Assembly (NCBI RefSeq): GCF_035593265.1
Contig: NZ_CP141614.1
Span: forward strand, 310,001-374,000
Source: Limnochorda sp. LNt
GTDB lineage: Bacteria > Bacillota > Limnochordia > Limnochordales > Geochordaceae
DNA length: 64,000 nucleotides
Direction of reading: 5' to 3'
Shown here: in pieces, positions 2,522-58,349 of the stretch
Layout: each line of letters opens with the position of its first letter
Position numbering within the stretch: position 1 is the first letter of the stretch
Position numbers and translations under genes: made by a program
Notes under the pieces: generated by a model
The model's database searches: none
Seen by the model: the letters and a program-made list of their open reading frames with translations, nothing else
Told to the model about the DNA's origin: nothing

Positions 2522-3199
2522 TCACGAGGGAGGGGCGGACGCCTCGACGTGCGCCTCGGAGAGGCTCAGCCGCAGTCGGTCCAGGCCCAGCAGGCGCTGG
2601 ACGGAGCCGGCCAGCCCGGGCCAGCGCAGCAGCCCATCGGCCTTGACGACCCCCACCTCCGGGTCGAGCCAGATGAGGCTCTCCAGGCGGCTGCCCCAGG
2701 TGTCCTTACGCGACAGCCGGATGCGGTAGGCCTCGTAGACGCCGGCGGGTACCCCCACCCGCTCCAGGGCCTCCACGACGCCCTCCACTTCGTCCCATCC
2801 CCGCGACGAGCCGCTGACCACGGGATTGCGCCATTGCCACCGGCGGCCCACCTCGAGGGGGAGGGCGATGGTCAGCTCGGGCGGATCGAAGGCCAGCCGC
2901 CACAGCGGCCGCCCGAGAAACGAGAAGACGCGGTCCACGGTGAAGAGCCCCGAGCTGCGCAGAGCCAGCTGTTCCTCCATGGCGGCGCCGGCCACGCGGA
3001 TCTCCCAGCGGTAGCGGCGCGCGCCGTCCACCACGCCGGGCTCCTCGTCCAGCCGGACCCGCACCGCTCCCAGGTCGGAGGTATAGAGCCAGCGACTGCC
3101 TCCCCGCACGTAGGGCAGGGGAGGCGGCCCCTCGTCGGCGCCTCGCGCCGGTTGCAAGCTGGCTGCCACCATCAGCGCCACGACCAGGATCCACGTCAT
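2522..3199 (-). CDS. Exported protein of unknown function
   Basis: A 225-residue protein starting with a clear signal peptide (hydrophobic residues 3-16, then ARGADEG, a plausible signal-peptidase I site). The mature part is rich in beta-type sequence with many Trp and Arg residues (GRRWQWRNPV, PAGVYEAYRIRL, IWLDPEVGVVKADGLL). This resembles small extracytoplasmic beta-rich proteins, but I do not recognise a family. The ATG at 3199 directly follows an in-frame stop and has no obvious ribosome site, so expression may depend on coupling to the anchored protein gene 57 bp upstream on the same strand. Confidence 0.6.
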   Translation of the reverse strand: MTWILVVALMVAASLQPARGADEGPPPLPYVRGGSRWLYTSDLGAVRVRLDEEPGVVDGARRYRWEIRVAGAAMEEQLALRSSGLFTVDRVFSFLGRPLWRLAFDPPELTIALPLEVGRRWQWRNPVVSGSSRGWDEVEGVVEALERVGVPAGVYEAYRIRLSRKDTWGSRLESLIWLDPEVGVVKADGLLRWPGLAGSVQRLLGLDRLRLSLSEAHVEASAPPS

Positions 3200-33684: not shown

Positions 33685-34992
33685 CTAACGACCGATGTCA
33701 GTGCGGCATTGCATGCCCTCGAACCGGATCGCGGCCGCGGCCGCGTAGGCTCGCTGGCGTGCCTCCTCTCGGTCCCGGCCCAGCCCCACGACGTCGAGGA
33801 CACGCCCCCCTGCCGTCTCCAGACGACCGTCGGGGCCGAGGCGGGTGGCAGCGTGAAAGACGAGGGTCGTCTCGTCGTCGCGCAGGCCTTGCTCGATGAC
33901 GTCGCCCGTGCGGGGCCGCTCGGGGTACCCCGCCGACGCCAGCACCACGCAGACGGCGTGGCCGGGGGCGCGCTCCGTCGGCCCGGACGGGCGCCACAGC
34001 CACCGCGGGTCGTCGGGGAGCCCGTATCCGGGCACACCGGCGGCCGCCATCAGCGCATCGGCCAGGCGCGAGGGGTCCACCAGCGGGAGCTGGGCCTGCG
34101 TCTCCGGATCGCCCGGACGACAGTTGAACTCCAGCACCGCCGGTCCCTGCTCGGTCAGCATCAAGCCGGCGTAGAGGACGCCCCGGAAGGGCGTCCCCCC
34201 GGCGGCCAGGGCCCTGAGCGTGGGGTGCACGATCCGCTCCAGGATGGCCTCCAGGGAGAGCCCGGCCTCCGCCTCCACGTCGACGGGGGCGACGCTGCCC
34301 ATCCCCCCCGTGTTGGGGCCCCGGTCCCCGTCCAGCAGCCGCTTGTAGTCGCGGGCCGGCGGCAGGGCCACGCACCGCTCGCCGTCCGTCACCACCATGA
34401 CGGAGAGCTCGCGGCCCGTCAGGCGCCGCTCGACGACCACCACCCGGCCCGCGTCGCCCAGCACCCGGCGCACCATCAGCGCCTCGACGGCCTCTGCCGC
34501 CAGCCGGGGCGAATCGCAGACCACGACGCCCTTGCCGCCCGCCAGCCCGTCGGCCTTGATCACCACCGGCTCCTCGAGGCGCCGGACGTACGCGAGGGCC
34601 CGCTGGGGATCGGCGAAGAGGCGAAACGGCGCCGTGGGAACGCCGGCTCGCTCCATCAGCTGCTTCGCGAAGGCCTTGGAGGACTCGATGCGGGCCGCGC
34701 CCCGGGAGGGGCCGGCGACATGGAGGCCGGCCTCTCGTAGCCGGTCGGCCAGGCCCGCGGCCAGCGGCGCCTCGGGGCCGACGACCACCAGACCGACGCC
34801 CCGGTCCCGGGCGAAGTCGACCAGCGCCCGGGCGGCGCCCGGCTCCACGAGGTCGACGGGCACCCGATCCGGCGTGCCCGCGTTGCCGGGAGCCACGTAG
34901 ACCCGCCCGAAGCGGCCGCTGCGCTCCAGAGCCCAGGCCAGAGCGTGCTCACGGCCGCCGCTGCCGATGACCAGGGCCGATGGCTCGCTCAT
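33685..34992 (-). CDS. purD: Phosphoribosylamine--glycine ligase
   Basis: A 435-residue GARS, normal length for the single-domain enzyme. It joins glycine to phosphoribosylamine with ATP, the second step of purine synthesis. Motifs are GSGGREHALAWAL, NAGTPDRV, the ATP-grasp lysine region VIKADGLAGGKGVVV, and EFNCRPGDPETQ. The ATG at 34992 overlaps the purN stop (ATGA). It is the last gene of the ten-gene operon. The gene purH often found next to purD in Bacillota is missing here. Confidence 0.93.
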   Translation of the reverse strand: MSEPSALVIGSGGREHALAWALERSGRFGRVYVAPGNAGTPDRVPVDLVEPGAARALVDFARDRGVGLVVVGPEAPLAAGLADRLREAGLHVAGPSRGAARIESSKAFAKQLMERAGVPTAPFRLFADPQRALAYVRRLEEPVVIKADGLAGGKGVVVCDSPRLAAEAVEALMVRRVLGDAGRVVVVERRLTGRELSVMVVTDGERCVALPPARDYKRLLDGDRGPNTGGMGSVAPVDVEAEAGLSLEAILERIVHPTLRALAAGGTPFRGVLYAGLMLTEQGPAVLEFNCRPGDPETQAQLPLVDPSRLADALMAAAGVPGYGLPDDPRWLWRPSGPTERAPGHAVCVVLASAGYPERPRTGDVIEQGLRDDETTLVFHAATRLGPDGRLETAGGRVLDVVGLGRDREEARQRAYAAAAAIRFEGMQCRTDIGR

Positions 34993-35648
34993 GCCGGCGC
35001 CTCCTCCGGCAGGATGCGGACGCGGCGCCCCTCCAGCACGAGCCGGCGGCTGGCGAAGAGCCGCACGGCCTCCACGTAGAGGCGGTGCTCGTGGGGCAGG
35101 ATACGCGCGGCCAGGCTCTCCGGGGTGTCGTCGTCGCGCACCTCGACCGCTGCCTGCAGCACGATGGGGCCCGTATCGACCCCCTCGTCCACCAGGTGGA
35201 TGGTGCAGCCGCTCAGCTTGACGCCGTAGGCGATGGCCTGCGCCTGGGCGTCCTTGCCGGCGAAGGCGGGGAGCAGGGAGGGATGCACGTTGAGGATGCG
35301 ATGCCGAAAGCGCCGGACGAAGTCGGGCGTCAGCACGCGCATGAAGCCGGCCAGGCAGACGAGCTCGACGCCCGCCTCCTCGAGGCGGCGGGCCAGGCAG
35401 GCGTCGAAGGATGCCCGGTCGGGGAAGGCCCTCGGGTCCAGGTGCGCGGCCGGCACCCCCGCCCGCCGGGCACGCTCCAGAGCGGGGGCCCCGGCCCGGT
35501 CCGACAGGACCACCACGATGCGTGCCGGGATGGCGCCGCTGGCGGTGGCATCCAGCAGCGCCTGCAGGTTGGTGCCCCGGCCCGAGACCAGCACACCCAG
35601 GCGTAACGGGGCCTCGGGCGTGGCGAGCCGCCCCGCGTCAATCCTCAA
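34989..35648 (-). CDS. purN: Phosphoribosylglycinamide formyltransferase
   Basis: A 219-residue 10-formyl-THF-dependent GAR transformylase. Motifs are GVLVSGRGTNLQALLD, the catalytic Asn/His region ILNVHPSLLPAFAGKDA, and HLVDEGVDTGPIV with the catalytic aspartate. The first in-frame start is TTG at 35648, which overlaps the purM stop by 11 bp. The conserved domain begins about 15 residues in, so a slightly later start is possible. It uses formyl-folate, linking the operon to the folate genes at 8-11 kb. Confidence 0.92.
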   Translation of the reverse strand: MRIDAGRLATPEAPLRLGVLVSGRGTNLQALLDATASGAIPARIVVVLSDRAGAPALERARRAGVPAAHLDPRAFPDRASFDACLARRLEEAGVELVCLAGFMRVLTPDFVRRFRHRILNVHPSLLPAFAGKDAQAQAIAYGVKLSGCTIHLVDEGVDTGPIVLQAAVEVRDDDTPESLAARILPHEHRLYVEAVRLFASRRLVLEGRRVRILPEEAPA

Positions 35649-36822
35649 CGATCTCGACCCACCCTCCGGGGACCGGTCGCTTGGCGGACGGCGGGAAGCG
35701 CAGCCGGCCCTCGGCCGGCTCGGGCGTCGTCGGCCCCTCGGGAGCCGGCTCCACGGTTCCGATGATCCAGGCGGGCTGACCGCTGGAGGCCAGCACGGCC
35801 AGGGCCGCCCCGGCGTCGTCGGCGGCGACCGCCGCCACCATGCCGATGCCCATGTTGAAGACCCGATACGCCTCCTCCAGGCTCAGCCCGCCGGCCTCCA
35901 TCAGCCAGTCGAAGACCGCGGGCCGCGGCCAGCTGCCCTCGCGGAGGGTGGCGCGGCACCCCGCCGGCAGCACCCGGGCCAGGTTGTCGGGCAGCCCGCC
36001 GCCGGTCACGTGCGCCAGGGCGTGCGACTCGACGGCGGCCCCCAGGCCAGCAGCGGCCGGGCGTAGATGCGCGCGGGGCGGTCAGGGCCTCGCCCAGCAT
36101 GGGGCCGCCGCGCCAGGGGCCGCCCACGGCGCGGGCGCGTCGAGGGGCGTGCCGGTGTCGGCCAGGATCCGGCGCACCAGCGAGAAGCCGTTGGCATGCA
36201 GCCCCGACGAGGCCAGGCCCACCAGCACGTCGCCGGGGCGCGCCTGCATGCCGGAGCCATCACGGGACGTGCCGCCCCCCGAGACGAGGCGGGCCCGCTC
36301 CGCCACCCCCACGCAGAAGCCGGCCAGCTCGTAGACCCCATCGGGATAGAAGCCGGGCATCTCGGCCGTCTCGCCGCCCAGCAGCACGCACCCGGCCTCC
36401 CGGCATCCCTGCGCGACCCCCTCCACCACTTCGGCCACCACGGCGGGATCGAGGCGGCCCATGGCCAGGTAGTCGAGGAAGAGCAGGGGCTGGCCCCCCG
36501 CCGCCAGGACGTCGTTGACGCACATGGCCACGCAGTCGATGCCGGCCACGCGGTGGCGGCCCAGCGACGCCAGCAACGCGATCTTGGTGCCGACGCCGTC
36601 CGCTCCGGCCACCAACACCGGGTCCCGCACCCGGGGCGCCGCGTCCTGCAGGGCGAGCAGCCCGGCGAAGCCCCCGACGCCCTCCAGCACTCCCGTCGAG
36701 CCGGTGCCGCCCGCCAGGCGGGCCAGGCGCTGCACCAGCGCGCCCTTCTTCTCGAGGTCGACCCCCGCCTCCCGGTAACGGGGGGCACCCCCCGCCCCCG
36801 GCTTGCCCGGCATGGTCGTCAT
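35638..36822 (-). pseudogene. purM: AIR synthetase, disrupted by two frameshifts in the sequence given
   Basis: The coding content is a full-length PurM (about 345-390 residues). The N-terminal part from the ATG at 36822 keeps AGADGVGTKIALL, GIDCVAMCVND, LLGGETAEMPGFY and SSGLHANGFSLVRRIL. The C-terminal part keeps ARIYARPLLAWG, HALAHVTGGGLPDNL and EEAYRVFNMGIGMV. Between 36130 and 36070 the frame changes twice, and each change fits loss of a single base, the second within a CCCC run just before ARIYARP. As written, the N-terminal frame stops at 36082. Every flanking gene is intact and overlaps it (ATGA with purF, 11 bp with purN). A sequencing or assembly error is therefore the simplest explanation; a real lesion would block de novo purine synthesis. 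Confidence 0.85.
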
Positions 36823-38300
36823 CCGGCGTCGCCCTCCTCCACGGCCACGGGCTCGAGCGCCATCTTGGGGACGGCCCCGTCGACGGGGACGGGATACCGA
36901 CCGGTGAAGCAGGCCTCGCAGGCCGGCCCGCCCAGAACCCGCCGCATGCGGGCGAGCGACAGGAAGGCCAGCGAGTCGGCGCCGATGGCGGCGCGGATGG
37001 ACTCCACGGGGTTACCGAAGGCGATGAGCTCCTCCCGCCGGGCGGTGTCGACGCCGTAGTGGCAGGGGAAGCGGTAGGGCGGGGAGGCGATGCGGACATG
37101 CACCTCCCGGGCGCCCGCGTCCCGCAGCAGCTGCACGATGCGCCGGGCCGTGGTGCCCCGGACGATGGAGTCATCCACCAGCACCACCCGGCGGCCCTGC
37201 ACCACCTTGCGGACCGCGTTGAGCTTGGCGTTGACCGACAGCCTTCGCTGGCCGGCGGCCGGCTGGATGAAGGTGCGTCCGACGTAGCGGTTGCGTACCA
37301 GCCCCATCTCGTAGGGCAGGCCCAGCTCCTCCGCGTAGCCCATCGCCGCCGACAGGCTGGAGTCCGGCACCCCCGTCACCAGGTCGCCGGGGGCCGGATG
37401 CTCGCGCGCCAGCTCCCGTCCCATCTCCTTGCGCAGGCCGTGCACGCTCTGGCCGAAGAGCACGGAGTCGGGCCGCGCCAGGTAGATGGCCTCGAAGGCG
37501 CAAAGGCCCCCACGAGCCACCGTCGTGCCACCGGGGACGCCGGCCGGCGCCAGCCGGGCGACGGTACGGATGCCGTCGCCGTCGAGGCGCGCCACCTCCC
37601 CGGGCTCCACGTCACGCACCCAGGCGGCGCCGAGGGCGTCCAGGGCGCAGGTCTCCGAGGCGGCGACCCAGGCCTCGCGGCCGGTGGGGGTCTGCAGCCG
37701 ACCCAGACTCAAAGGCCGGATGCCCAGCGGGTCACGCGCCACCAGCACGCCCTGGGGATCCAGCACGACCAGGGCCCACGCCCCGGCGATCTGGCCGAGG
37801 GCGTGCACCAGGGCCGCCTCGGTGGGGCCTCCGTGGCGCGCCACCAGGTGCGCCACCACCTCGGTGTCGGTGGTGGTCTGGAAGATGGCGCCGCCTTCCT
37901 CGAGTCGCTGGCGCAGGTGCGAGGCGTTGACCAGGTTGCCGTTGTGGGCGATGGCCAGGAACCGCCCGCGGAAGCGGCTCAGGATGGGCTGGGCATTTTC
38001 GAGGCGCGAGGCGCCGGTGGTGGAGTAGCGGACGTGGCCGACGGCCATCGGCCCGGGCAGCCGTTGCAGCTGCTCGGCGCGCAGGACGTCGGAGACGAGG
38101 CCCATGCCGCGGTGGAGGAAGACCCTCCCCTGCTCGTCGGCGGAGGCGATGCCCGCGCTCTCCTGGCCCCGGTGCTGCAGCGCCAACAGGGCCCACTGCA
38201 CCGCCGAGGCCGCCTGGGGGTGCCCCACCACGGCCGCGACGCCGCACTCGTCCCGGGCCTCCCGGCTGTCGGTGAGGGGCCGGTGCCGGCTCATGCTCAT
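36819..38300 (-). CDS. purF: Amidophosphoribosyltransferase
   Basis: A 493-residue glutamine PRPP amidotransferase, the first committed step of purine synthesis. After a short propeptide comes the nucleophile cysteine in DECGVAAVVG. The glutaminase domain has RYSTTGASRLENAQP and HNGNLVNA. The phosphoribosyltransferase domain has the PRPP loop VVLVDDSIVRGTT. The ATG at 38300 overlaps the purL stop (ATGA), and the gene end overlaps purM (ATGA). PRPP is the substrate, and the leader of this operon carries a riboswitch probably sensing it. Confidence 0.94.
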   Translation of the reverse strand: MSMSRHRPLTDSREARDECGVAAVVGHPQAASAVQWALLALQHRGQESAGIASADEQGRVFLHRGMGLVSDVLRAEQLQRLPGPMAVGHVRYSTTGASRLENAQPILSRFRGRFLAIAHNGNLVNASHLRQRLEEGGAIFQTTTDTEVVAHLVARHGGPTEAALVHALGQIAGAWALVVLDPQGVLVARDPLGIRPLSLGRLQTPTGREAWVAASETCALDALGAAWVRDVEPGEVARLDGDGIRTVARLAPAGVPGGTTVARGGLCAFEAIYLARPDSVLFGQSVHGLRKEMGRELAREHPAPGDLVTGVPDSSLSAAMGYAEELGLPYEMGLVRNRYVGRTFIQPAAGQRRLSVNAKLNAVRKVVQGRRVVLVDDSIVRGTTARRIVQLLRDAGAREVHVRIASPPYRFPCHYGVDTARREELIAFGNPVESIRAAIGADSLAFLSLARMRRVLGGPACEACFTGRYPVPVDGAVPKMALEPVAVEEGDAG

Positions 38301-40718
38301 GGACGCGCGGCCTCCTGCAGGGCCCGCTCCCAAGGGATGCGCAGGGCGTCGATGGGCTCGTCCAGGGCGATCCCCTGACCGGCCACGGCGATCCGGACAC
38401 GGCCGGGCGTCACCCGGCCGATGACGTGCACGGGCACGGCAGGCTCGCCGCGGCGGGCCAGCTCCTGGACGGCCGGCACCGCCTCGGGCCGCGCGGTGGC
38501 CACCCAGGCGGGCCCTCCGGCCCCGAATAGCCAGGCCTCCGCCTCCCGACCCGGGTCAGGCAGCGTCACGTCGACCCCAGCCGCCTCGTCACGGGCACCC
38601 AGGGCGGCCTCGCAGATGGCCACGGCCACGCCCCATCGGCCCACGGTGTGGCAGGCGCCGAGCAGCCCCTGTCGGCCTGCCTCGGCCACCACGGCGATGG
38701 CCGCCCGCTCGCGGTCGAAGTCCACGGCCCAGGCTCCTTCACCTGTCCACCGCGCTGGCCACCCGAGGAGCAGCACCGCCTCGTTGGCCCGCTGGAAGAC
38801 CGACGGCACCGGCCTCTCCGCCTCCAGCGCGCCGACCATGCCGACGATGGCGGTCGGCCAGATGGCCCGGGCGCCGGAGCCCCGCTCGCCCGGGCCTGGC
38901 GCGCCCGCGTCGGCCACGGTCTCGTTGTAGAGGGAGACGTTGCCGCCGGTGACCGGGATGCCCAGTGCCGAGCAGGCGTCGCCCATGCCGGCCACCACGT
39001 CGGCCAGGGCCTGCCGCACCTCGGCCCGTTGGGGGTCGCCCAGGTTGAGCCCGTTGGTGATCCCGATGGGGACGGCCCCCACCGCCGCGACCTTGCGGGC
39101 TCCCTCCAGCACGGCCTCGGCCCCCGCCGCCCAGGCGCCTGCCTCGGTGGAGGCCAGCCACTCGGCCCCGTTGACCGAGAGGGCGACGAGCGGGAGCCGG
39201 GTCGCCCGCTGGCCGGCGTCCGCCGGCAGGGGGGGCGACCCCGGCACGGCCTCCTCCGGCAGCACGCGCAGCACCGCGGCGTCGTGCCCCGGCGGCAGTA
39301 TCGTCCGCACCCCGACCATGTGGTCGAACTGCTGATAGATCCAGGCCCGGCTGCCTCCGTGCGGCGACGCCAGGTGCGCCAATAGCCGCGCCGTCACCCG
39401 GGCCCTCAACGAGCCGGCTGCCGAAGGGGCCGGCCGGGAAGTCGCGTGGAGAGCCTGGGCGCGGCCCCTCGCCGCCGACCCGCCCGTCGGGGACGTCCCG
39501 GTCGGTCGGCGCGGCGCAGGCACCGGGTGGCGGGCGCCCGTCGGCCAGCAGCGCGGCCGGCACGTCGGCGACCCACCGGCCGCCGGCCCGGACCCGCAGC
39601 CGCCCGTTAGCGGTGACCACCCCGATGGGGGCGGCCTCCAGGCGCCACCGGGCGAAGATCCGCTCCACCTCGGCCTCCCGCCCGGCCCTCACCACCAGCA
39701 TCATGCGCTCCTGGGACTCCGAGAGCATCATCTCGTAGGGAGTCATGCCGGCCTCGCGGCAGGGCACGCGGTCCAGGTCGAGGTCGATGCCGGTGCCCGC
39801 CCGGGCCGCCAGTTCCGAGGCGGCGGCCGTGATGCCGGCGGCGCCCAGATCCTGGATGCCGACGACGGCGCCCGTCTCCAGGGCCTCCAGGCAGGCCTCG
39901 ATGAGCAGCTTCTCCGTGAAGGGGTCGCCCACCTGGACTCGCGGCCGCTGCTCGCCGCCTTCGCCGTCCCGAAACGTGCGGGAGGCCAGCAACCCCGCTC
40001 CGTGGATGCCGTCTCGGCCCGTGCGGGCGCCGACCAGGTAGACCCGGTTGCCCGGCCCGTCGGCTCGGGCCCGCACGACGCGGTCGGCCCGCACCCACCC
40101 GACGCACATGACGTTGACCAGGGGGTTGGTGTCGTAGCAGGGGGCGAAGGCCACCTCGCCGCCCACCGTCGGCACGCCGATGGCGTTGCCGTATCCGGCG
40201 ATGCCGGCCACCACCTCGCGGAAGAGGTACCGGTTGGCGGGCGTCTCGGGCAGCCCGAAGCGCAGGGAGTCCAGCAGGGCGACGGGACGGGCCCCCGCCG
40301 CCAGCACGTCTCGCACGATGCCACCCACGCCCGTCGCCGCGCCTTGATACGGCTCCACGTAGGAGGGGTGGTTGTGCGACTCGAGGCGCACCGCCACCGC
40401 CCATCCCTCGCCGATGGCCAGCACCCCCGCGCTCTCCCCCGGGCCCATCACCAGGCGCGACCCCGTCGCCGGCAGCCGCTTGAGGGCCTCGCGGGAGTGC
40501 TTGTAGGCGCAGTGCTCGGACCAGGCCACCGAGAGCATGCCGAGCTCCGTCCAGCTGGGCGGCCGCCCCAGCGTCTCCCGAAAGCGGGCGAACTCCTCGT
40601 CGGTGAGGCCGAGGCGGCGCCACGCCTGCGTCGCCTCGATCTCGGCCGCCGTGGGATCGCCGGGCCAGTCGGCGACTCGCACCGGATCCATCACGTCCCG
40701 GCGCGTCTCAGCGCCCAT
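38297..40718 (-). pseudogene. purL: FGAM synthase II large subunit, interrupted by one frameshift
   Basis: A small-type PurL (about 800 codons including linker) that works with PurQ and PurS. The N-terminal part from the ATG at 40718 has WSEHCAYKHSREALK, AVAVRLESHNHPSYVEPYQG, given here as VRLESHNHPSYVEPYQG, then GGEVAFAPCYDTNP and GIQDLGAAGITAA. The C-terminal part has RAWIYQQFDHMVG, GITNGLNLGDPQ, PVTGGNVSLYNET and CHTVGRWGVAVAI. The frame changes once between about 39530 and 39400, in a poorly conserved linker, consistent with one extra base or two missing bases. The ATG overlaps the purQ end by 11 bp. Everything else is intact, so an assembly or sequencing error is likely. Confidence 0.87.
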
Positions 40719-41487
40719 CGGCCTCACCCCCTGCCCGGGCCGTCACGGCCCGTCGCCCCTCACGGCGGGCCGCCAGCCACCGCCCCAGCGAGAGCCACAT
40801 GCGCAGGCCATCCCGGCTGCCCAGCACCGACTCGGACGCCCGCTCGGGGTGGGGCATCAGCCCCAGGACGTTGCCCTCGGGGTTGGTCAGCCCGGCGACG
40901 GCCCCCGCCGCCCCGTTGGGGTTGTAGGCGTCGTGCACCCGCGCGTCCTCGCCACGGGGGCCGCAGTAGCGCAGCGCCACCTGCCCTCGTCGCTCCAGGG
41001 CGTCGAGCTCGTCGGGCCAGGCGAAGTAGTTGCCCTCGTAGTGGGCGATGGGCAGCTCCAGCACCTCTCCGGGCGCGTAGAGCAGCGTGAAGGGGGTGTC
41101 GGTGCGCTCCACCCGCACCGTCACCGGCCGGCAGATGAAGCGCAGCGTCCGGTTGCGCCGCATCGCCCCCGGCAGGAGCCCCGCCTCCAGCAAGATCTGG
41201 AAGCCATTGCAGATGCCGAGCACCGGCATCCCCTGGCGGGCCCGCTCCCGCACGGCCTGCATCACGGGGGAGAGGGCGGCGATGGCGCCGCTGCGCAGGT
41301 AGTCGCCGTAGGAGAAGCCCCCCGGGATGACCACGGCGTCGATGCCCGAGAGGCTCGACTCCTCGTGCCAGACCGAGACCGCCTCCAGTCCGGCGTCGCG
41401 GCCGGCTCCCCGGTTGATGGCGTGCCGCACGTCCCCATCGCAGTTGGTGCCCGGAAACGTGACGACCCCCACCGTCGCGACGCTCAC
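40708..41487 (-). CDS. purQ: FGAM synthase glutaminase subunit
   Basis: A 259-residue class I glutamine amidotransferase supplying ammonia to PurL. It opens with VGVVTFPGTNCDGD. The nucleophile is the cysteine in GICNGFQILLEAGLLPGA, and the His-x-Glu partner is in GLMPHPERASE. It is about 25 residues longer at the C-terminus than typical PurQ (225-235 residues), with an Arg/Ala-rich tail. The ATG at 41487 overlaps the purS stop (ATGA). Confidence 0.94.
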   Translation of the reverse strand: MSVATVGVVTFPGTNCDGDVRHAINRGAGRDAGLEAVSVWHEESSLSGIDAVVIPGGFSYGDYLRSGAIAALSPVMQAVRERARQGMPVLGICNGFQILLEAGLLPGAMRRNRTLRFICRPVTVRVERTDTPFTLLYAPGEVLELPIAHYEGNYFAWPDELDALERRGQVALRYCGPRGEDARVHDAYNPNGAAGAVAGLTNPEGNVLGLMPHPERASESVLGSRDGLRMWLSLGRWLAARREGRRAVTARAGGEADGR

Positions 41488-41738
41488 GGCTGCTCCGCCC
41501 TCACCTCGAAGGACTCGATGACGGGATTGGCCAGGAGCCGCTCCGCCATCGCCCGGGCCCGCTCGAGGGCCTCGTCGCGGCTGTCGGCCTCCAGGTCCAG
41601 CGCGATGCGCCGGCCGATGCGGACCTCCAGGACGCCCGGGAAGCCCAGGGCCTGCAGGGCGCTCCGTGTCGCCTCGCCGGGCGGGTCGAGCACGCCCTGC
41701 CGCGGCATCACGTGGACGAAGACGGTGAATCGAGCCAC
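41484..41738 (-). CDS. purS: FGAM synthase PurS subunit
   Basis: An 84-residue PurS, the small scaffold bridging PurL and PurQ in the three-part FGAM synthase. RFTVFVHVMPRQGVLDPPG and the GFPGVLEVRIGRRIAL stretch are typical. The GTG at 41738 lies inside the end of purC (31-bp overlap), with GAGGCGGC just upstream. The separate PurS/PurQ/PurL organisation is found in Bacillota, Archaea and several other groups, not in enteric bacteria. Confidence 0.92.
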   Translation of the reverse strand: MARFTVFVHVMPRQGVLDPPGEATRSALQALGFPGVLEVRIGRRIALDLEADSRDEALERARAMAERLLANPVIESFEVRAEQP

Positions 41739-42544
41739 CGCGCCGCCTCCTCGATGCGCCGCCGGACCTCGGCGTAAGTCTCCTCGACGCGGCCCAGGTC
41801 CCGACGGAAGCGGTCCTTGTCCATGCGCTCGCCGCTGCCGACCTCCCAGAAGCGGCACGTGTCCGGGGAGATCTCGTCGGCCAGCAGCAAGCGAGGGCCG
41901 GCGCCGCCGTTCGAGGGTGTCCCGGCCGGGCCGACGGGTCGCCCGAACTCCAGCTTGAAGTCGATGAGCTCGAGCCCGGCCCGCAGGGCCAGCTGGCGCA
42001 TGGCCCGGTTGGCCTCGAAGGCCAGGCGCTCGAGCTCGGCCAGCTCCTCGCCTGTCGCCCAGCCCAGCGCTTCGGCGTGGTGGGCGTTGACCCACGGGTC
42101 GTGCAGCGGATCGCTCTTGTAGAAGAGCTCCAGCACGGGGCGCCGCAGGGCCGTGCCCTCCTCCAGACCCAGCCGCTTGGCCAGGCTACCGGCCACCCGG
42201 TTTCGCACCACGACCTCGAGCGGGATGATCTCCACGGCCCGCACCAGCATCCGCACCGGCGACTCCAGGCGCAGGAAGTGGGTCGGCACCCCGGCCCGCT
42301 CCACCGCCCGGAAGAAGGCCACCGAGATGGCCGCGTTGGCCTCCCCCTTGCCGCCGATGACGGCTCGCTTGGCGCCGTCGAAGGCCGTAGCCTCGTCGGT
42401 GAAGTCGATGAGCCGAAGCTCCGGATGGCCCGGCACCTCGTAGACAGCCTTGACCTTGCCCCGGTGCAGCAACCGCCCTGGCTCGACGGGAGCAGGGGGC
42501 AGCTGGCCTCCCCGCGGCGTCACGCGCTCGCGCGTCTCCATCAC
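41708..42544 (-). CDS. purC: SAICAR synthetase
   Basis: A 278-residue enzyme ligating aspartate to CAIR. Features are HRGKVKAVYEVPG, LIDFTDEATAFDGAKR, EVVVRNRVAGSLAKRLGL and LADEISPDTCRFWEVGSG. It is somewhat longer than B. subtilis PurC (about 240 residues) because of an N-terminal leader and a Gly/Pro-rich insert before LLADEIS. The GTG at 42544 overlaps the purB stop (GTGA); the next codon is ATG, which may be used instead. Confidence 0.94.
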   Translation of the reverse strand: MMETRERVTPRGGQLPPAPVEPGRLLHRGKVKAVYEVPGHPELRLIDFTDEATAFDGAKRAVIGGKGEANAAISVAFFRAVERAGVPTHFLRLESPVRMLVRAVEIIPLEVVVRNRVAGSLAKRLGLEEGTALRRPVLELFYKSDPLHDPWVNAHHAEALGWATGEELAELERLAFEANRAMRQLALRAGLELIDFKLEFGRPVGPAGTPSNGGAGPRLLLADEISPDTCRFWEVGSGERMDKDRFRRDLGRVEETYAEVRRRIEEAARWLDSPSSST

Positions 42545-43938
42545 GATCCCCTCTCCTCGGTCCCCACCTGGCCCGGCTCGTGCGCGACGCTCCCGGGGCT
42601 CGACGCCCCGGCATGTCGGGCGATCTCGAGCCGGTCGAAGATGGCGCCGATGCGCTCAAGGAACGCGGACAGGTCGAAGGCGGCTTCGAGCCGCTCCCGG
42701 CCCGCCACCGCCACGAGCTCCGGGTCCGACAGGATCCGCTCGCGGAAGGTGGGGGGGGTGGCCAGCCGCCCCGCGGCGGAGGCGGCCTCGCGGGCTGCCA
42801 TGGCGTGGGCCTGCACCCGGGTATAGGCCTGCTCCCGGCTCATGCCCGCCTCCACCAGCGCCAGCAACACGCGCTCGGAGAAGACGAGACCGCCCGTCGC
42901 CTCGACGTTGGCCCGCATGCGCGCCGGGTAGACCCGCCAATGCTCCACGATGCGGCGAAAGAGGTCGACCATGTAGTCGGCCAGGGTGGTGGCGTCGGCC
43001 AGCCAGATGCGCTCGGTGGAGCTGTGGGAGATGTCCCGCTCGTGCCAGAGCGCCACGTTTTCGAAGGCCGTCGTGGCATATCCCCGCAGCACCCGTGCCA
43101 GCCCCACGATGCGCTCCGAGCGCATGGGGTTGCGCTTGTGCGGCATGGCGGACGAGCCTCGCTGGCCGGTGGGAAAGGGCTCCTCCAATTCGCCGACCTC
43201 GGTCTGCTGCATGAGCCGGATCTCGACGGCGAACTGCTCCAGGCTGGCGCCCAGGATGGCCAGGGCGGCGGCCGCCTCCGCGTGGCGGTCCCGTGCCACC
43301 ACCTGGCTCGAGACCGGCGCGGGCCGCAGCCCCAGGCGCTCGCAGACGTAGGCCTCCACGAAGGGGTCCACGTGGGCGAAGGTGCCGACGGCGCCCGAGA
43401 TCTTGCCGACGGCCAGCGCGCTGCGGGCCCGGTAGAGCCGCTCGAGGTCGCGGCCCATCTGATCCCACCACCGGGCCAGCTTCAATCCGAAAGTGATGGG
43501 CTCGGCGTGGACCCCGTGGGTGCGGCCCATCATCGGGGTGTCACGGTAGCGCCACGCCTCGCCCACCAACGCCTGCCGAAGGCCCTCGACGCCGCGGATG
43601 ACGTGATCCATGGCCTCGGCCGACAGGGAGGCCAGGGCCGTATCCATCACGTCGGAGGAGGTGAGGCCCAGGTGGAGGTAGCGGGCATCCTCGCCCACCG
43701 TCTCCGAGACCGCCTGCAAGAAGGCGATGAGCTCGTGGTCCGAGACCCGCTCCAGCTCCCGGATCCGCTCCACCGTGAAGCTGGCCCGCTCCCGCAGCCG
43801 CCGGGCCGCCTCCCGGGGGACGCGACCGAGCTCGGCCCATGCCTCGCAGGCCAAAAGCTCCACCTCGAGCCAGCGGCGGTACTGGTTCTCCTGTGACCAG
43901 AGGGCCGCCATGTGCGGCCGTGTGTAGCGACCGATCAA
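42541..43938 (-). CDS. purB: Adenylosuccinate lyase
   Basis: A 465-residue member of the fumarase/aspartase superfamily acting twice in purine synthesis (SAICAR to AICAR, adenylosuccinate to AMP). Motifs are HLGLTSSDVMDTALA, GRTHGVHAEPITFG, and the flexible signature loop GSSAMPHKRNPMRSE with the catalytic serine. The start is a TTG at 43938 whose last two bases form part of the purE stop (TTGA), an unusual coupled start. The next in-frame ATG lies nine codons further on (RPHMAAL) and would remove conserved N-terminal residues. Confidence 0.93.
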   Translation of the reverse strand: MIGRYTRPHMAALWSQENQYRRWLEVELLACEAWAELGRVPREAARRLRERASFTVERIRELERVSDHELIAFLQAVSETVGEDARYLHLGLTSSDVMDTALASLSAEAMDHVIRGVEGLRQALVGEAWRYRDTPMMGRTHGVHAEPITFGLKLARWWDQMGRDLERLYRARSALAVGKISGAVGTFAHVDPFVEAYVCERLGLRPAPVSSQVVARDRHAEAAAALAILGASLEQFAVEIRLMQQTEVGELEEPFPTGQRGSSAMPHKRNPMRSERIVGLARVLRGYATTAFENVALWHERDISHSSTERIWLADATTLADYMVDLFRRIVEHWRVYPARMRANVEATGGLVFSERVLLALVEAGMSREQAYTRVQAHAMAAREAASAAGRLATPPTFRERILSDPELVAVAGRERLEAAFDLSAFLERIGAIFDRLEIARHAGASSPGSVAHEPGQVGTEERGS

Positions 43939-44480
43939 CGGGGCTCGCCCCCTCGCGCCGCCTCCTCGCCGCCGGAGGCCAGCGACTCCAGGAGCCGGCG
44001 CTCCCGCAAGGCCACGCTCTCGGCCTGGCGGCGACGCAGATCCTGCAGGCGCCGGGCCAGCCCCGGATCCTGCAGGGCCAGGATCTGGGCCGCCAGGATG
44101 GCTGCGTTGCGGGCCCCGTTGACCGCCACCGTCGCCACGGGCACGCCTGGCGGCATCTGGGCGATGGAGAGCAGGGCGTCGAGCCCGCCCAGCGAGGCGG
44201 CTACCGGCACGCCGATGACCGGCAGCGTGGTCCAGGCCGCCACGACGCCCGGGAGGTGCGCGGCGCCGCCGGCTCCGGCGATGATGACCGAGAGTCCGCG
44301 GGCGCCCGCGCCCTGGGCCCACTGCTGGACGCGCTCGGGGGTGCGGTGCGCGGAGGCGACGGCGACTTCGACGGTGAGGCCGAGTTCGAGGAGCTGGTCA
44401 TAGGCAGCCTTCATCACGGGCCAGTCGGAGTCGCTGCCCATGATGAGGCCCACCATGGCCGCACGCTCAGGATGCGGCAT
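43935..44480 (-). CDS. purE: N5-CAIR mutase (AIR carboxylase catalytic subunit)
   Basis: A 181-residue PurE. GLIMGSDSDWPVMKAA, VASAHRTPERV, AGAGGAAHLPGVVAA and the ALLSIAQMPPGVPVATV stretch are diagnostic. It is the first gene of the operon, 67 bp after the riboswitch terminator. The ATG at 44480 has GGGGGGAAC about seven bases upstream. No purK follows, so either purK is elsewhere or this PurE carboxylates AIR directly (class II); the sequence I can read does not settle which. Confidence 0.93.
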   Translation of the reverse strand: MPHPERAAMVGLIMGSDSDWPVMKAAYDQLLELGLTVEVAVASAHRTPERVQQWAQGAGARGLSVIIAGAGGAAHLPGVVAAWTTLPVIGVPVAASLGGLDALLSIAQMPPGVPVATVAVNGARNAAILAAQILALQDPGLARRLQDLRRRQAESVALRERRLLESLASGGEEAARGGEPR

Positions 44481-44546: not shown

Positions 44547-44607
44547 AAAAACGACCAGCCCAGGCGGGTCTTTCACCTTGGCGAGGTGAAACCTACCCAC
44601 CTGGGCT
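44547..44607 (-). terminator. Riboswitch-controlled intrinsic terminator before purE
   Basis: Read leftwards, the RNA forms a long hairpin. AGCCCAGG (44607-44600) pairs with CCTGGGCT (44564-44557). Inner pairs GGGT/ACCC and TTTCACC/GGTGAAA extend it. GGTCGTTTTT follows, ending at 44547. The 5' arm lies wholly within the 3' half of the aptamer, and its TTTCACC is also the 3' strand of aptamer helix P1, so aptamer and terminator are mutually exclusive. Confidence 0.85.
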
Positions 44608-44724
44608 TTTGTCCCACCGGTGTAACGCCCTCCCGGCGCCCGCATGCGGGCCACCGGCTGGACGCCCGCGCCGCTTGGACCAGACCAGGGAAGCCCTGCG
44701 GAACCCTAGGCGCGCTTTCCCTCG
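44582..44724 (-). ncRNA. ykkC-family riboswitch, probable PRPP class (ykkC subtype 2b)
   Basis: The leader of the purine operon carries conserved ykkC blocks in order: CCTAGGGTTCCGCAGGG, then CTTCCCTGGTCTGGTCC followed by AAGCGG, then TTACACCGGTGGGACAAAAG running into CCC. The ends pair as helix P1: CGAGGGAAA (44724-44716) with TTTCACCTCG (44591-44582), with one unpaired base. ykkC RNAs sense guanidine (subtype 1), ppGpp (2a), PRPP (2b) or nucleoside diphosphates (2c). Position before de novo purine genes is the hallmark of the PRPP class. Since P1 uses the terminator's 5' arm, ligand binding should prevent termination, an ON switch. Ligand identity is inferred from gene context. Confidence 0.85.
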
Positions 44725-44751
44725 CTCAGCAGCCTGAGCAATTCTGGTCCC

Positions 44752-44781
44752 ATGCTAATCCCGCGCCCGCGAAGCCGTCAA
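44752..44781 (-). promoter_or_regulatory. Promoter of the purine operon
   Basis: Read leftwards, TTGACG (44781-44776) and TAGCAT (44757-44752) are 18 bp apart. Initiation near 44746 would start the RNA about 20 bases before the aptamer, through a small hairpin GCTCAG-GCTG-CTGAGC (44739-44724). Confidence 0.6.
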
Positions 44782-44937: not shown

Positions 44938-45148
44938 TCAGCCGGGAGGCTCGGGCGGCGACGGGACCTCGCCGCCTGGCCCTGGCGCTTTCCCTGACCC
45001 GCTTGGCTCGATGCCGAGCCGCTCTCCGACAGCCCGCACGAGGCCTTCGGCTCGCCGTATGGCATCGGCAGCGTCATCTGGGCCGAAAGCCTCATGGGCC
45101 GTAGAGAACCAGCGGCGCGCCTCACGTAGGTTCTGATCGATGAGGTCG
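44938..45148 (-). pseudogene. Possible HEPN-like remnant after the nucleotidyltransferase gene
   Basis: Directly after, and out of frame with, the nucleotidyltransferase gene lies an open stretch reading DLIDQNLREARRWFSTAHEAF and then DAADAIRRAEGLVRAVGERLG, followed by a Pro/Gly-rich tail. It is helical, in good local codon usage, and placed where a HEPN partner would be. It has no start codon and is much shorter than a HEPN domain (about 130 residues). I read it as a decayed partner. It could also be a non-coding shadow. Confidence 0.3.
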
Positions 45149-45475
45149 CTCGTAGACGACTCTCCCCTCTTGCAGAGCGGTGTAGACGAAGTCGCGCCGC
45201 TCTCGGACGAGCCGCTCCAGCTCTTCCGGGGTATAGACGAGGGGCTGCACCGAGACGGGCACATCGACCAGGGCGAGGACGTCGTCAATCCGCTGCAGGA
45301 AGGGCCGGTCCGTCCGCTTGATCACGAGGAGGTCGATGTCACTGTCTTCATGCACATCGCCCCGTGCCACCGAGCCGAACACGATGATCTTCTCCGGATC
45401 GTAGCCGGATGCGACTTGCCGAACCGCCTCCGCCGCAGCTTGGTGCAGTCTGACCCTCCACCCCTGGTGCGTCAT
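45122..45475 (-). CDS. MNT-type nucleotidyltransferase domain protein
   Basis: A 117-residue minimal nucleotidyltransferase. The signature IIVFGSVARGDVHEDSDIDLLV holds the GSxARG motif and the two metal-binding aspartates (given in parts: FGSVARGD and DSDIDLLVI). A third acidic position is probably in VDVPVSVQPL. Such proteins commonly act as the antitoxin in MNT/HEPN pairs, where they adenylylate the HEPN RNase. Here the HEPN partner seems lost or decayed. The ATG at 45475 has GGGAGG ten bases upstream. It lies 56 bp after the M29 gene on the same strand. Confidence 0.8.
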   Translation of the reverse strand: MTHQGWRVRLHQAAAEAVRQVASGYDPEKIIVFGSVARGDVHEDSDIDLLVIKRTDRPFLQRIDDVLALVDVPVSVQPLVYTPEELERLVRERRDFVYTALQEGRVVYERPHRSEPT

Positions 45476-53715: not shown

Positions 53716-55939
53716 GCTTCAATAGAGCCGCTGGTTTACACCAGCGGTAGGTCCATCCGAGTGCCCGCTCTCGACGGCACAGGTCCTACTTCAATGGGGC
53801 CGCTGGTTTACACCAGCGGTAGGTCGTGTCCTTTTGCCACCGCCGCCAGCCCGCTGCCAGCCTTCAATGGGGCCGCTGGTTTACACCAGCGGTAGGCTGC
53901 CCCCGGGCCTGGAGGGTGGCCAAATCCGTGATGGCTTCAATGGGGCCGCTGGTTTACACCAGCGGTAGGCGCCGTCGTCGTCGGGCAGATGCACCTTCCC
54001 ATCGCGCTTCAATGGGGCCGCTGGTTTACACCAGCGGTAGGGAGGAGCATCTCGGCCAGGGTCTCCCTGGAGACCCAGGGCTTCAATGGGGCCGCTGGTT
54101 TACACCAGCGGTAGGCCCGAGCTGCCGCCTGTTGTATGTTCAAGATGGCGCTTCAATGGGGCCGCTGGTTTACACCAGCGGTAGGGCCAAGGAGAAGTCG
54201 AAGCAGCAGGCGCTGCGGAAGTGGCTTCAATGGGGCCGCTGGTTTACACCAGCGGTAGGCAGTGCTGGTGCGGGTTTGACCGTTCCACGCGCGCGTGGCT
54301 TCAATGGGGCCGCTGGTTTACACCAGCGGTAGGTACTTCATCCCTGTAAAACTGGCAACCCAAAGAGTGTGCTTCAATGGGGCCGCTGGTTTACACCAGC
54401 GGTAGGGCTTCTGCTGGAGTGTGGCAAGGTCGGTCACATCGGGGCTTCAATGGGGCCGCTGGTTTACACCAGCGGTAGGGGCCGATCGCCAGCGCCGTGG
54501 CGATTCCCGCGATGTAGCCGCTTCAATGGGGCCGCTGGTTTACACCAGCGGTAGGCCGCCTCACGACGCAAGGGAGTGCGTGCAGAACAGGGCTTCAATG
54601 GGGCCGCTGGTTTACACCAGCGGTAGGCCGGGTTCGCGAGGCCGACACCGAGCGCCTCGCGGATGCTTCAATGGGGCCGCTGGTTTACACCAGCGGTAGG
54701 GGGGGATAGTCAGCCCACGGCCTCGAAGCTGCTGCAGCTTCAATGGGGCCGCTGGTTTACACCAGCGGTAGGGGAGGAGGAGCTGACCCATCGCGTCGCC
54801 ATGCTCCGCGCTTCAATGGAGCCGCTGGTTTACACCAGCGGTAGGGTGGCCCCCACCGAGCCGTAGTCGTAAAGCCGCAACGCTTCAATGGAGCCGCTGG
54901 TTTACACCAGCGGTAGGTTGACAATCTCATACAGGAGGGATCCTCAATGGCACGCTTCAATGGAGCCGCTGGTTTACACCAGCGGTAGGCCGTCAAGCAC
55001 AAGGCGGAACTCGCCGCCAAGGTAGTGCTTCAATGGAGCCGCTGGTTTACACCAGCGGTAGGCGCTTGGGGCCTGACCTGGCTGCCGGACGCTAGAACGC
55101 TTCAATGGAGCCGCTGGTTTACACCAGCGGTAGGCCTGCGAGAGTGGCGTCACTTCCCGATGCTAAGAGGAAGCGCTTCAATGGAGCCGCTGGTTTACAC
55201 CAGCGGTAGGCGGCCCCGAATGACCGCTCTCCCAGCCCCCCGAGCAGCTTCAATGGAGCCGCTGGTTTACACCAGCGGTAGGCATCAGCATGGGTGCCGA
55301 GATCAGGGTGATTGACCTGCTTCAATGGAGCCGCTGGTTTACACCAGCGGTAGGTCGCATCTCGCCAAGGATGCGGTCGAGCGCCTCCTCGCTTCAATGG
55401 AGCCGCTGGTTTACACCAGCGGTAGGCCTGATGGTCGTATGCTACACCGAGGACGAGGAGCTGGCTTCAATGGAGCCGCTGGTTTACACCAGCGGTAGGT
55501 GGACTGCCGACTTCCGGGTCGGCACGCTTTGGATCGCTTCAATGGAGCCGCTGGTTTACACCAGCGGTAGGGATCACCAGCGTGCCGGTGTCGGGCTCGA
55601 TTTCGATGAGCTTCAATGGAGCCGCTGGTTTACACCAGCGGTAGGGTTCACGCGGCTCGAATCAAGGTGATATGCCGGATAGAGCTTCAATGGAGCCGCT
55701 GGTTTACACCAGCGGTAGGGTTCACGCGGCTCGAATCAAGGTGATATGCCGGATAGAGCTTCAATGGAGCCGCTGGTTTACACCAGCGGTAGGGACGCGT
55801 ATCGCCGAAGGGGAGACTGACTACGCCCCGGCTTCAATGGAGCCGCTGGTTTACACCAGCGGTAGGTTGCCGGGGAGCGTCTGCTCGGCGCACGGGTTGG
55901 TAGGCTTCAATGGAGCCGCTGGTTTACACCAGCGGTAGG
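53716..55939 (-). CRISPR. CRISPR array, 31 repeats of 36 bp, 30 spacers (type I-G)
   Basis: Thirty-one 36-bp repeats alternate with 30 spacers of 34-40 bp. In crRNA orientation (leftwards) the repeat begins CCTACCGCTGGTGTAAACC and ends ATTGAAGC. It contains an 8-bp stem CCGCTGGT/ACCAGCGG with a four-base loop. The ATTGAAGC end, the leader and the cas genes on the right all place the leader-proximal end at 55939. Plus-strand repeat position 11 is G in repeats 2-15 from the left and A in repeats 16-31. Repeat 1 (53716-53751), the oldest, has A at both positions 9 and 11. Two adjacent spacers (55646-55683 and 55720-55757) are identical. Position 1 is G except in repeats 2 (A) and 3 (C). Confidence 0.97.
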
Positions 55940-56135
55940 GGGCTCCCTGGGGGAGCCTTGTCGCTCTAGGGCCGGAGAGGCGTGTTGCGAGACCCCTGGG
56001 CAGAGGCGACCGCGACTGCCGCTCGCTATCCCACGAGCGAGGGCCGGGAGGCCTTGGCACACGTGGGCTACGAGCGCCTCCGGGCTCTTGTGCATCACTG
56101 AACCGCTCGCAGATGCCATCTCTTGCCATCCTTCG
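55940..56135 (-). promoter_or_regulatory. CRISPR leader region
   Basis: The 196 bp between cas2 and the first repeat should contain the leader and array promoter, reading leftwards. It is not AT-rich. Directly at the leader-repeat junction is a perfect 7-bp inverted repeat, GGCTCCC-TGG-GGGAGCC (55941-55957), which might guide integration. On the opposite strand a 39-codon frame (55982-56101) has normal codon bias but no recognisable product. Confidence 0.65.
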
Positions 56136-56435
56136 TCACACCACCACAGCCCCGGGCACACCCGGGTCCGAGAGCGGGGCGCCAACGAACTCTATCCGTT
56201 CCGACAACTTCTCCCCTGGCGGTCCCAGGTTGATGATAAGCAGACGGTCTTGACGGGGGTGGATGAGTTCGGACAGGTGCGCGACCATGAGAGCTTTCTC
56301 CTTCTGCGACAACATGCATCGGAAGACGGAGTACTGCAGCGGGTCTCCATAGCCGAGCATGGCTCGGTGAACCCGGCGCAGTCGCTTCTCGTCGGTGATG
56401 TCGTAGCAAACCAGGTAGTAGTGCCGCATGGTCAT
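56136..56435 (-). CDS. cas2: CRISPR-associated protein Cas2
   Basis: A 99-residue Cas2 that bridges two Cas1 dimers in the spacer-integration complex. HYYLVCYDITDEKRLRRVHR carries the strand-1 aspartate of the ferredoxin-like fold, followed by YGDPLQYSVFRCMLSQKEK and DRLLIINLGP. The ATG at 56435 shares one base with the cas4-cas1 stop (TGATG), so translation is coupled. GTG at 56438 and ATG at 56429 are alternative starts. It is the last cas gene before the leader. Confidence 0.94.
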   Translation of the reverse strand: MTMRHYYLVCYDITDEKRLRRVHRAMLGYGDPLQYSVFRCMLSQKEKALMVAHLSELIHPRQDRLLIINLGPPGEKLSERIEFVGAPLSDPGVPGAVVV

Positions 56436-58267
56436 CACCGGGTGACGAACCCAGGATACTCCGGGATCTCTCCCAGGAGGTATCGCCCGAGAAGGCGCGC
56501 CTGCACTTCGAAGACGCGGCGGTAGCTGACCGAGTATCCGAAAACCGGGTGCCGCACGAGTGTCGCCAGACGTCGTTCATACGCTGCGATGAACCGCCGG
56601 CGCCCTGGCTCCGTTAGGGCCGTTCCCCCAGCCCCTACCACGAAGTCGCTCCGGGTTATCTCACCGTTGTTGATCACCGTGATGACCACTGAGTCCGCGA
56701 TGATGGGGCGAAACTCCTCCATCATGTCGAGTGCGAGAGCTGGCTTGCCCCACTTGGGACGGTGGTAGAACCCCAAGTAGGGGTCGAAGCCGACGGCCAG
56801 GAGAGTGACCGTGAAATCCTTGACCAAGAGGGAGTACGCGTAGGATAGGAGCGCGTTGACCGGATCTCGCGGGGGGCGGCGGTTGCGCCCCTCGAAGTCG
56901 AAGCCAAGCTCGCCGGCGCTCGTCTGCGGGGGTTTCAGCATTCCCTTGAAATGGGAGAAGTAGATGCGTGCAGCCGTCCCCTCGATGCCGAGCAAGCTTT
57001 CCACGCTGGTGGCTGCCCTGGCTTCTTCGGCCAGCCGCGCCAGGGCATCGAGGGCCTCCTCAGGTCGGTCGGTGTGGTTTCGCCGCAGAAGGACCCGACT
57101 GTTCAGAATCTTGGCTGCCACGAATCGGCGCGCCAGCTCCAACGAGCGTTGGGGGTTCGCAGCCGTCTCAAACTGCCGGCATCTGAGCTCAACGTTCTTG
57201 TTGGTCAAGCCGGTGGTGAGAGCCGTGAACCAACCCCCATAGGAGAAGTGACAGATCGGGATACCCCGTCCGGCCAGGTCCCGTAGTGCCTGGGCGGAGA
57301 TCTGCACATTGCCTATCAGGCAGACCTGAGAGATGTCCAGCACCCGGACATCTGCCCGAGTTTCGCCGCGGATGCTGACGACGACTCGCTCCCCCGAGCG
57401 GCGTACCTGGGCGCCTTGTTCCTGCACGTAGAGCGGCATGGCGTCGCTACGAGCTGGAAAGAGCCGGCGTACCTCCGGCTCGGTCCCGGCATGGTCCGAG
57501 CCCTCGTCGGAACGCGTCGTCTCCCCCGGCCCCGAAAGGGAGGGCACGCCCGCTTTGAGCAGGTTGGTCTCGTCAGGGAGGCAGATGCCGACCAGCGAGC
57601 ACCGCGGACACTTCGGGCTGTCCACCAACGGGGGAGGGATCTGCCCCGCTTCCGCCACCTCCAGGGCCTGCTGCACCAGTTCGAGAGTACGGGCCTCCAG
57701 CTCGGGTGTGAAGGGAACCTCGACGCGTCGCCGAGATGCGACGTAGTACAGCATTCCCTTGTGACAGGAGAAGCCGTTCTCTCGAAGGATCAGGCCCTGT
57801 GCACACAGTAGCACGCGGTCCGGCTCCCACGACTGCTCTGGCGTATCCGGCACCTCGCCCCGCTTGTAGTCGACAGGAGTGACGTTCAGCCCCTCTCCCT
57901 CTAGAAGGTCAATACGGGCAATGAGACGCAGCCGGGGCGCCGACAGCAGGACCGACCGGGCGCGAATGGGGCTATCCGCACCCGCGTCCGCATCGTCCCC
58001 TTGGGGCTCACCCCTCGACGACTCCGTGTCTGGCCCGTCGGGGGGCGGGTGGTCGGACTCTGACCTCTCGGCCCACATCGGGGCCGCCCCACCCGGCCGG
58101 TCCACCCGCCGGTGGTGGTAGCGGCCCTCGATGGTGTCCGCGGAGTCCTCCCACTCCCCTTGCACCCATTCCAGGTAGAACAGGCGCGGGCAGTAGGCGA
58201 ACTCATTGAGCATTCGGGCCGGGAGGAGGTCGGTGCTGCTCTTGTCCGATGCCGCAGCGTCAGTCAC
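56435..58267 (-). CDS. cas4-cas1: Cas4-Cas1 fusion protein
   Basis: A 610-residue adaptation fusion. The Cas4 part (residues 1-235) is a RecB-like nuclease with Asp120, Asp133 and Lys135 (VDYKRG) and four candidate [4Fe-4S] cysteines: Cys26 (FAYCPRLF) and Cys220, 223 and 229 (CPRCSLVGIC). An acidic, disordered stretch lies at 60-100. After a linker, the Cas1 part (about 285-610) has Glu429 (LLGIEGTAARIYF), His502 (FYHRPKWGKPALALD) and Asp514/Glu517. Cas4 trims prespacers at the PAM; Cas1 integrates them. This fusion is typical of type I-G. The GTG at 58267 has GGAGGAGAGG upstream. Confidence 0.95.
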   Translation of the reverse strand: MTDAAASDKSSTDLLPARMLNEFAYCPRLFYLEWVQGEWEDSADTIEGRYHHRRVDRPGGAAPMWAERSESDHPPPDGPDTESSRGEPQGDDADAGADSPIRARSVLLSAPRLRLIARIDLLEGEGLNVTPVDYKRGEVPDTPEQSWEPDRVLLCAQGLILRENGFSCHKGMLYYVASRRRVEVPFTPELEARTLELVQQALEVAEAGQIPPPLVDSPKCPRCSLVGICLPDETNLLKAGVPSLSGPGETTRSDEGSDHAGTEPEVRRLFPARSDAMPLYVQEQGAQVRRSGERVVVSIRGETRADVRVLDISQVCLIGNVQISAQALRDLAGRGIPICHFSYGGWFTALTTGLTNKNVELRCRQFETAANPQRSLELARRFVAAKILNSRVLLRRNHTDRPEEALDALARLAEEARAATSVESLLGIEGTAARIYFSHFKGMLKPPQTSAGELGFDFEGRNRRPPRDPVNALLSYAYSLLVKDFTVTLLAVGFDPYLGFYHRPKWGKPALALDMMEEFRPIIADSVVITVINNGEITRSDFVVGAGGTALTEPGRRRFIAAYERRLATLVRHPVFGYSVSYRRVFEVQARLLGRYLLGEIPEYPGFVTR

Positions 58268-58349
58268 GGGTCTCCTCTCCTCCTTGCGGGTATTCGCTTG
58301 TCAAGGTGCGAGGTAGGCACTCTTGTGCGAGAGGGCGTCCGTCAAGAGG

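Follow-up and report, generated by a model that had tools for sequence, protein, structure and literature searches.

A probable singlet PRPP riboswitch before the purine operon of Limnochorda sp. LNt

The purine operon purE-B-C-S-Q-L-F-M-N-D of Limnochorda sp. LNt is very probably under the control of a singlet PRPP riboswitch (ykkC subtype 2b) that acts as a transcriptional ON switch. We located it in a window of 64,000 nucleotides (the whole stretch analyzed), where it occupies a leader of about 200 nt before purE (minus strand, 44781 to 44545). Our assignment is based on the identity of the parts by sequence, covariation of the helices, conservation, the residues of the ligand pocket, and gene context; PRPP binding and the direction and size of the switch we infer from the published homologues of Heliobacterium modesticaldum and Facklamia ignava (PMC5912903). 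The switch is a well-formed, ordinary example of a known riboswitch class; a 2018 study of 257 Firmicutes examples already described the class with its mechanism, genes, gene context, singlet form, and platform (PMC5912903). What the present example adds, on a small scale, is an occurrence in Limnochordia and a conserved 5′ hairpin beside the P0 helix; our literature search found no paper mentioning riboswitches and Limnochordia together. In a very GC-rich bacterium from this little-studied class, a PRPP switch would appear to control the main purine operon.

Transcription of the leader would begin at a sigma-70-type promoter, TTGACG-18-TAGCAT (44752–44781, minus strand), with the −35 hexamer at 44781–44776, an 18-nt spacer, and the −10 hexamer at 44757–44752. 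It is the only promoter-like site between 44450 and 45150, a region for which shuffled sequences gave an expectation of 0.0, and the form TTGACS-N17/18-TAGCATGGG is retained in four genomes of the family (the host and three relatives). The transcription start would lie about 7 nt past TAGCAT, with the 5′ hairpin transcribed first and the aptamer second. A small nucleotidyltransferase-like open reading frame lies at 45122–45475 (minus strand) and resembles the MntA antitoxin and HalB, both under the cut-off. Elsewhere, the window holds, at about 53800–58270, a CRISPR-like repeat array and, beyond the array, minus-strand open reading frames resembling cas2 (56136–56438) and a cas4-cas1 fusion (56435–58267).

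The aptamer, delimited by our own PRPP covariance model (R1), spans 44585–44722 on the minus strand and comprises P0, P1, P2, and an extended P3. It is closed by GAGGGAAA/UUUCACCUC, which form P0, a helix described for the PRPP aptamer (PMC6031431). The 5′ strand of P0 (CGAGGGAAA, 44716–44724) and its 3′ strand (UUUCACCUCG, 44582–44591, also within the 5′ arm of the terminator) bring the aptamer ends together by pairing GAAA with UUUC (44723–44716 with 44591–44583), and the inner helix of P0 is 100% paired in an alignment of 99 PRPP-type aptamers. The core of P1, P2, P3, and the conserved ykkC blocks is complete, with 94.9 bits to R1, and the stretch folds at −80 kcal/mol (z −2.8). Across the 99 aligned sequences the helices covary: 97.1% of pair cells hold standard pairs, and changes on both sides were found in 464 cells and at 18 of 30 pairs, counts that lean towards the model because the alignment was fitted to it. 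None of 500 shuffles, which preserve column make-up and not relatedness, matched the observed covariation, and slid registers came nowhere near either. In a MAFFT alignment (A1), one row, L062, is off by one base and was retained.

An intrinsic terminator hairpin (44557–44607, minus strand) is mutually exclusive with P0 and P3: its 5′ arm is the 3′ strand of the aptamer, including the UUUCACC half of P0. The stem folds at −37.6 kcal/mol (z −6.0) and is separated by 5 nt (GGUCG) from a U-tract of five U (44547–44551). In the mechanism we propose, binding of PRPP would keep P0 (GAGGGAAA with UUUCACCUC) and P3 paired, so that the 3′ strand AGCCCAGGUGGGUAGGUUUCACCU (44607–44582) would not be free and polymerase would continue into purE; without PRPP, AGCCCAGGUGGGUAGGUUUCACCU would pair with AAGGUGAAAGACCCGCCUGGGCU to form the terminator before the U-tract, and transcription would stop. 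PRPP would accumulate when purine synthesis leaves it unused, and the genes that use it, including purF, would then be induced. A ykkC relic or constitutive leader, in which the terminator would lack the strength to act and no switching would occur, has very little to recommend it. The U-tract is indeed short and set off from the stem, and a simple terminator scan did not list the hairpin, probably because over 2 nt separate the U-run from the stem; nevertheless, the terminator and U-tract are kept in all four family genomes despite diverged flanks, and the z score of the stem likewise speaks against a relic. The parts proposed by the initial annotation, all on the minus strand and at or beside the coordinates it gave, are borne out by sequence and by folding of both alternative structures: the promoter with its 18-nt spacer, the complete ykkC-family aptamer (94.9 bits to the PRPP model, E 5e-26), and a terminator that reuses the 3′ strand of the aptamer and the same TTTCACC.

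The genes behind the riboswitch, all on the minus strand, follow the same order in a relative (G002). They begin with purE (43935–44480; TIGR01162, 204 bits), purB (42541–43938; TIGR00928, with the start placed by alignment with the relative), purC (41708–42544; TIGR00081), purS (41484–41750; NF004630 and TIGR00302), and purQ (40708–41487; TIGR01737 and NF002957). There follow purL (38300–40727), split into two reading frames by a break near 39531, purF (36819–38333), purM (35647–36822; TIGR00878), which in alignment with G002 has a short out-of-frame stretch near 36080–36110, purN (34989–35648; TIGR00639), and purD (33685–34992; TIGR00877). The breaks in purL and purM relative to G002 are likely assembly indel errors and less likely real frameshifts; purH is located elsewhere, outside the operon. 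De novo purine genes, which mark the PRPP class, are found downstream here, as they are in relatives, and PurF, the PRPP-using enzyme that had been placed in this operon, is confirmed there (TIGR01134, 481.7 bits). We found no full-length PurR in the genome, the only match being a weak, partial one of 51.5 bits against a cut-off of 258.7 that is probably another phosphoribosyltransferase-type protein. The initial annotation had noted no evident purine repressor site, and absence of a repressor is supported at the level of the B. subtilis family of PurR.

To assign the ligand, we built three covariance models, for PRPP (21 sequences), ppGpp (10 sequences), and guanidine-I (14 sequences). Aptamers were gathered by a 5′-half motif among the matches listed, by RF00442 (in relatives and the phylum), and by a ppGpp-like pattern; because the motif used only the 5′ half, position 96 was not preselected. 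R1 was trained on named loci, without Limnochordia sequences. With one mismatch allowed, the ppGpp pattern gave mostly PRPP types, and the ppGpp set was chosen by GAC/AAC-type matches and ilv context, nearly all of its members lying before ilvD, ilvC, ilvE, ilvB, or a branched-chain amino-acid transporter. The guanidine-I set lies mostly before SMR transporters. The Limnochorda aptamer scored 94.9 bits with the PRPP model, 40.5 with the ppGpp model (R2), and 36.6 with the guanidine-I model. With the models in the same order, a held-out Thermoanaerobacter thermocopriae aptamer (L091) scored 115.3, 79.5, and 48.6 bits, a held-out guanidine aptamer (L157) scored 42.8, 23.3, and 84.5 bits, and a ppGpp-type aptamer before ilvD (L261, the same site as training row L231) scored 83.3, 104.7, and 38.2 bits. 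These control scores indicate that the models separate the three kinds.

The residues of the pocket, numbered as in PMC6031431 and mapped through T. thermocopriae, agree with the scores. All contact and specificity residues for PRPP are present (G48, the pyrimidine C49, C75, A76, C77, C78, G96, and G104). We took G96 (G in >97% of PRPP aptamers) together with C75 as diagnostic of the class: position 96 is G in Limnochorda and in 98 of the 99 aligned aptamers (the remaining one has a gap there, at a contig end), and C75 occurs in all 99. As a point against the assignment, position 98 is U in Limnochorda and C in 87 of 99, although it varies in the class. These residues bear directly on a ppGpp riboswitch (subtype 2a), which would activate the operon under stringent conditions and which shares the fold, the P0 helix, and the type of ON platform. 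A single change separates the two ligands, since G96A alone shifts specificity between PRPP and ppGpp about 40,000-fold (PMC6031431), but Limnochorda has G96, whereas the ppGpp set, from aptamers before ilv genes, reads GACCCRAGCGG or near and lacks it. Moreover, Limnochorda has GAAAG/GGUUUC where ppGpp aptamers have GGGAAG/GGUUCC, and AAAAGCCC in place of AAAAGAC; the PRPP model scores better than R2 by 54 bits, and the genes downstream are those of purine rather than branched-chain amino-acid synthesis. We therefore consider ppGpp a highly unlikely ligand. Subtype 2c, whose ligands are nucleoside diphosphates, and any other ykkC subtype without an assignment are also very unlikely. The consensus models of the type 2 subtypes are closely alike (PMC7266159), and as our three models cover PRPP, ppGpp, and guanidine-I, the case against 2c comes from gene context: it controls NUDIX and HAD hydrolases (PMC7266159) and not pur operons. 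In addition, every published PRPP-contact residue is present. The proposal that the leader is of the PRPP type (subtype 2b) thus appears well founded, as judged from our covariance models, the ligand residues including G96, gene context, and conservation of the leader.

The search with Rfam models that the initial annotation had recommended for deciding the subtype failed in that role. At the gathering threshold Rfam matched nothing anywhere in the 64-kb window, and with relaxed settings it gave RF00442 (Guanidine-I) at 44596–44720 (57.2 bits, E 1.3e-9; cut-off 63), the sole ykkC-type match in the window and the only RF00442 match in the genome. Rfam 15 showed no PRPP model, and the PRPP aptamer of T. 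thermocopriae, the ends of which match the published primers of the crystallized T. mathranii PRPP aptamer (PMC6031431), is also labeled RF00442, at 68.1 bits. For both reasons, a better match to guanidine-I, which had been named as grounds for refuting the PRPP assignment, cannot discriminate between the two. A guanidine-I riboswitch, as the name of that sole match would have it, is almost certainly the wrong reading, because the score lies under the gathering score, the Thermoanaerobacter PRPP aptamer carries the identical name, our own guanidine-I model gives just 36.6 bits, position 49 is a pyrimidine (C), P0 is present, and neither an SMR transporter nor a urea carboxylase gene is found. 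Since Rfam 15 calls PRPP aptamers guanidine-I, automatic annotation gives the wrong ligand here and at similar loci.

The leader is conserved as a unit. In the four family genomes, which represent two genera and include Limnochordaceae bacterium Bu05 (L136 and L022, one contig), the promoter hexamers, 5′ hairpin, aptamer core, terminator, and U-tract are kept; divergence is seen in distal P2 and P3, in the promoter spacer, and in the part of the leader past the terminator. Among 73 genomes of the class, the PRPP model has matches in 26, with 4 of 4 in the family and 0 of 10 in the rest of the order. From 23 genomes of the class, Limnochorda included, we collected 24 aptamers; where the gene that follows is readable, it is purL, purE, purM, or a purine permease-like or nucleoside phosphorylase-like gene. 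Four PRPP-type aptamers before purE (L019, L020, L021, and L024) have a reduced P2 arm and an altered GGGUUCCG block (CUAGGGCGCAAGUGAUGUCC), with the pocket and P0 kept. Separately, we observed PRPP-type aptamers of 93–99 bits in L069 and L105, labeled Chloroflexi metagenome-assembled genomes (MAGs), and in L104, labeled a Proteobacteria MAG, at about 1650–1766, 3004–3113, and 2684–2792, respectively. A phosphoglycerate dehydrogenase gene follows about 700 nt downstream of them, with an apparent phosphatase-like first gene between; going by the MAG labels, neither the phyla nor the genes belong to the range published for the class.

The 5′ hairpin (GCUCAG-GCUG-CUGAGC, 44724–44739, minus strand) adjoins P0 and folds at −8.7 kcal/mol. 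Written as GCUCAGGYUGCUGAGC, it is invariant at 15 of 16 positions in the four family genomes (the window, L016, L022, and L023), and each genome has one exact copy, at the riboswitch only. An outward extension of P0 (GCGAGG with CCUCGC) overlaps the base of this hairpin, which could therefore tune formation of P0 or answer to another factor. We nonetheless regard it as unlikely that these 16 nt are a second, family-specific regulatory element.

Comparison with known systems places the Limnochorda switch among the singlet PRPP riboswitches. The guanidine-I riboswitch (RF00442) shares the P1–P3 core and the CUAGGGUUCC and GGGAYAAAAGCC blocks but is without P0 and has A at the equivalent of position 49 (PMC6031431), and the ppGpp riboswitch (2a) shares the P0–P3 architecture but is without G96 and is located before ilv genes. 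Tandem guanine–PRPP riboswitches (Thermoanaerobacter, and codA of Bacillus megaterium) have the same PRPP aptamer and platform logic, with a guanine aptamer 5–7 nt upstream of the PRPP aptamer; the 5′ hairpin of Limnochorda takes the position of P1 of that guanine aptamer. Unlike T. thermocopriae L091, in which a guanine aptamer (RF00167, 92 bits) lies immediately upstream, Limnochorda gave no RF00167 match in the window or the whole genome, and its genome thus has a PRPP switch but yielded neither a guanine aptamer nor a full-length PurR. The closest counterparts are the singlets of H. modesticaldum purB, for which PRPP-dependent read-through was reported in vitro and in B. subtilis, and F. 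ignava purC (PMC5912903). From these the Limnochorda switch differs in being very GC-rich, in its enlarged distal P3, in the family-specific 5′ hairpin by P0, and in belonging to the class Limnochordia. With them it shares the fold, P0, the pocket residues, a single aptamer before purine genes, and a terminator made from the 3′ strand of the aptamer.
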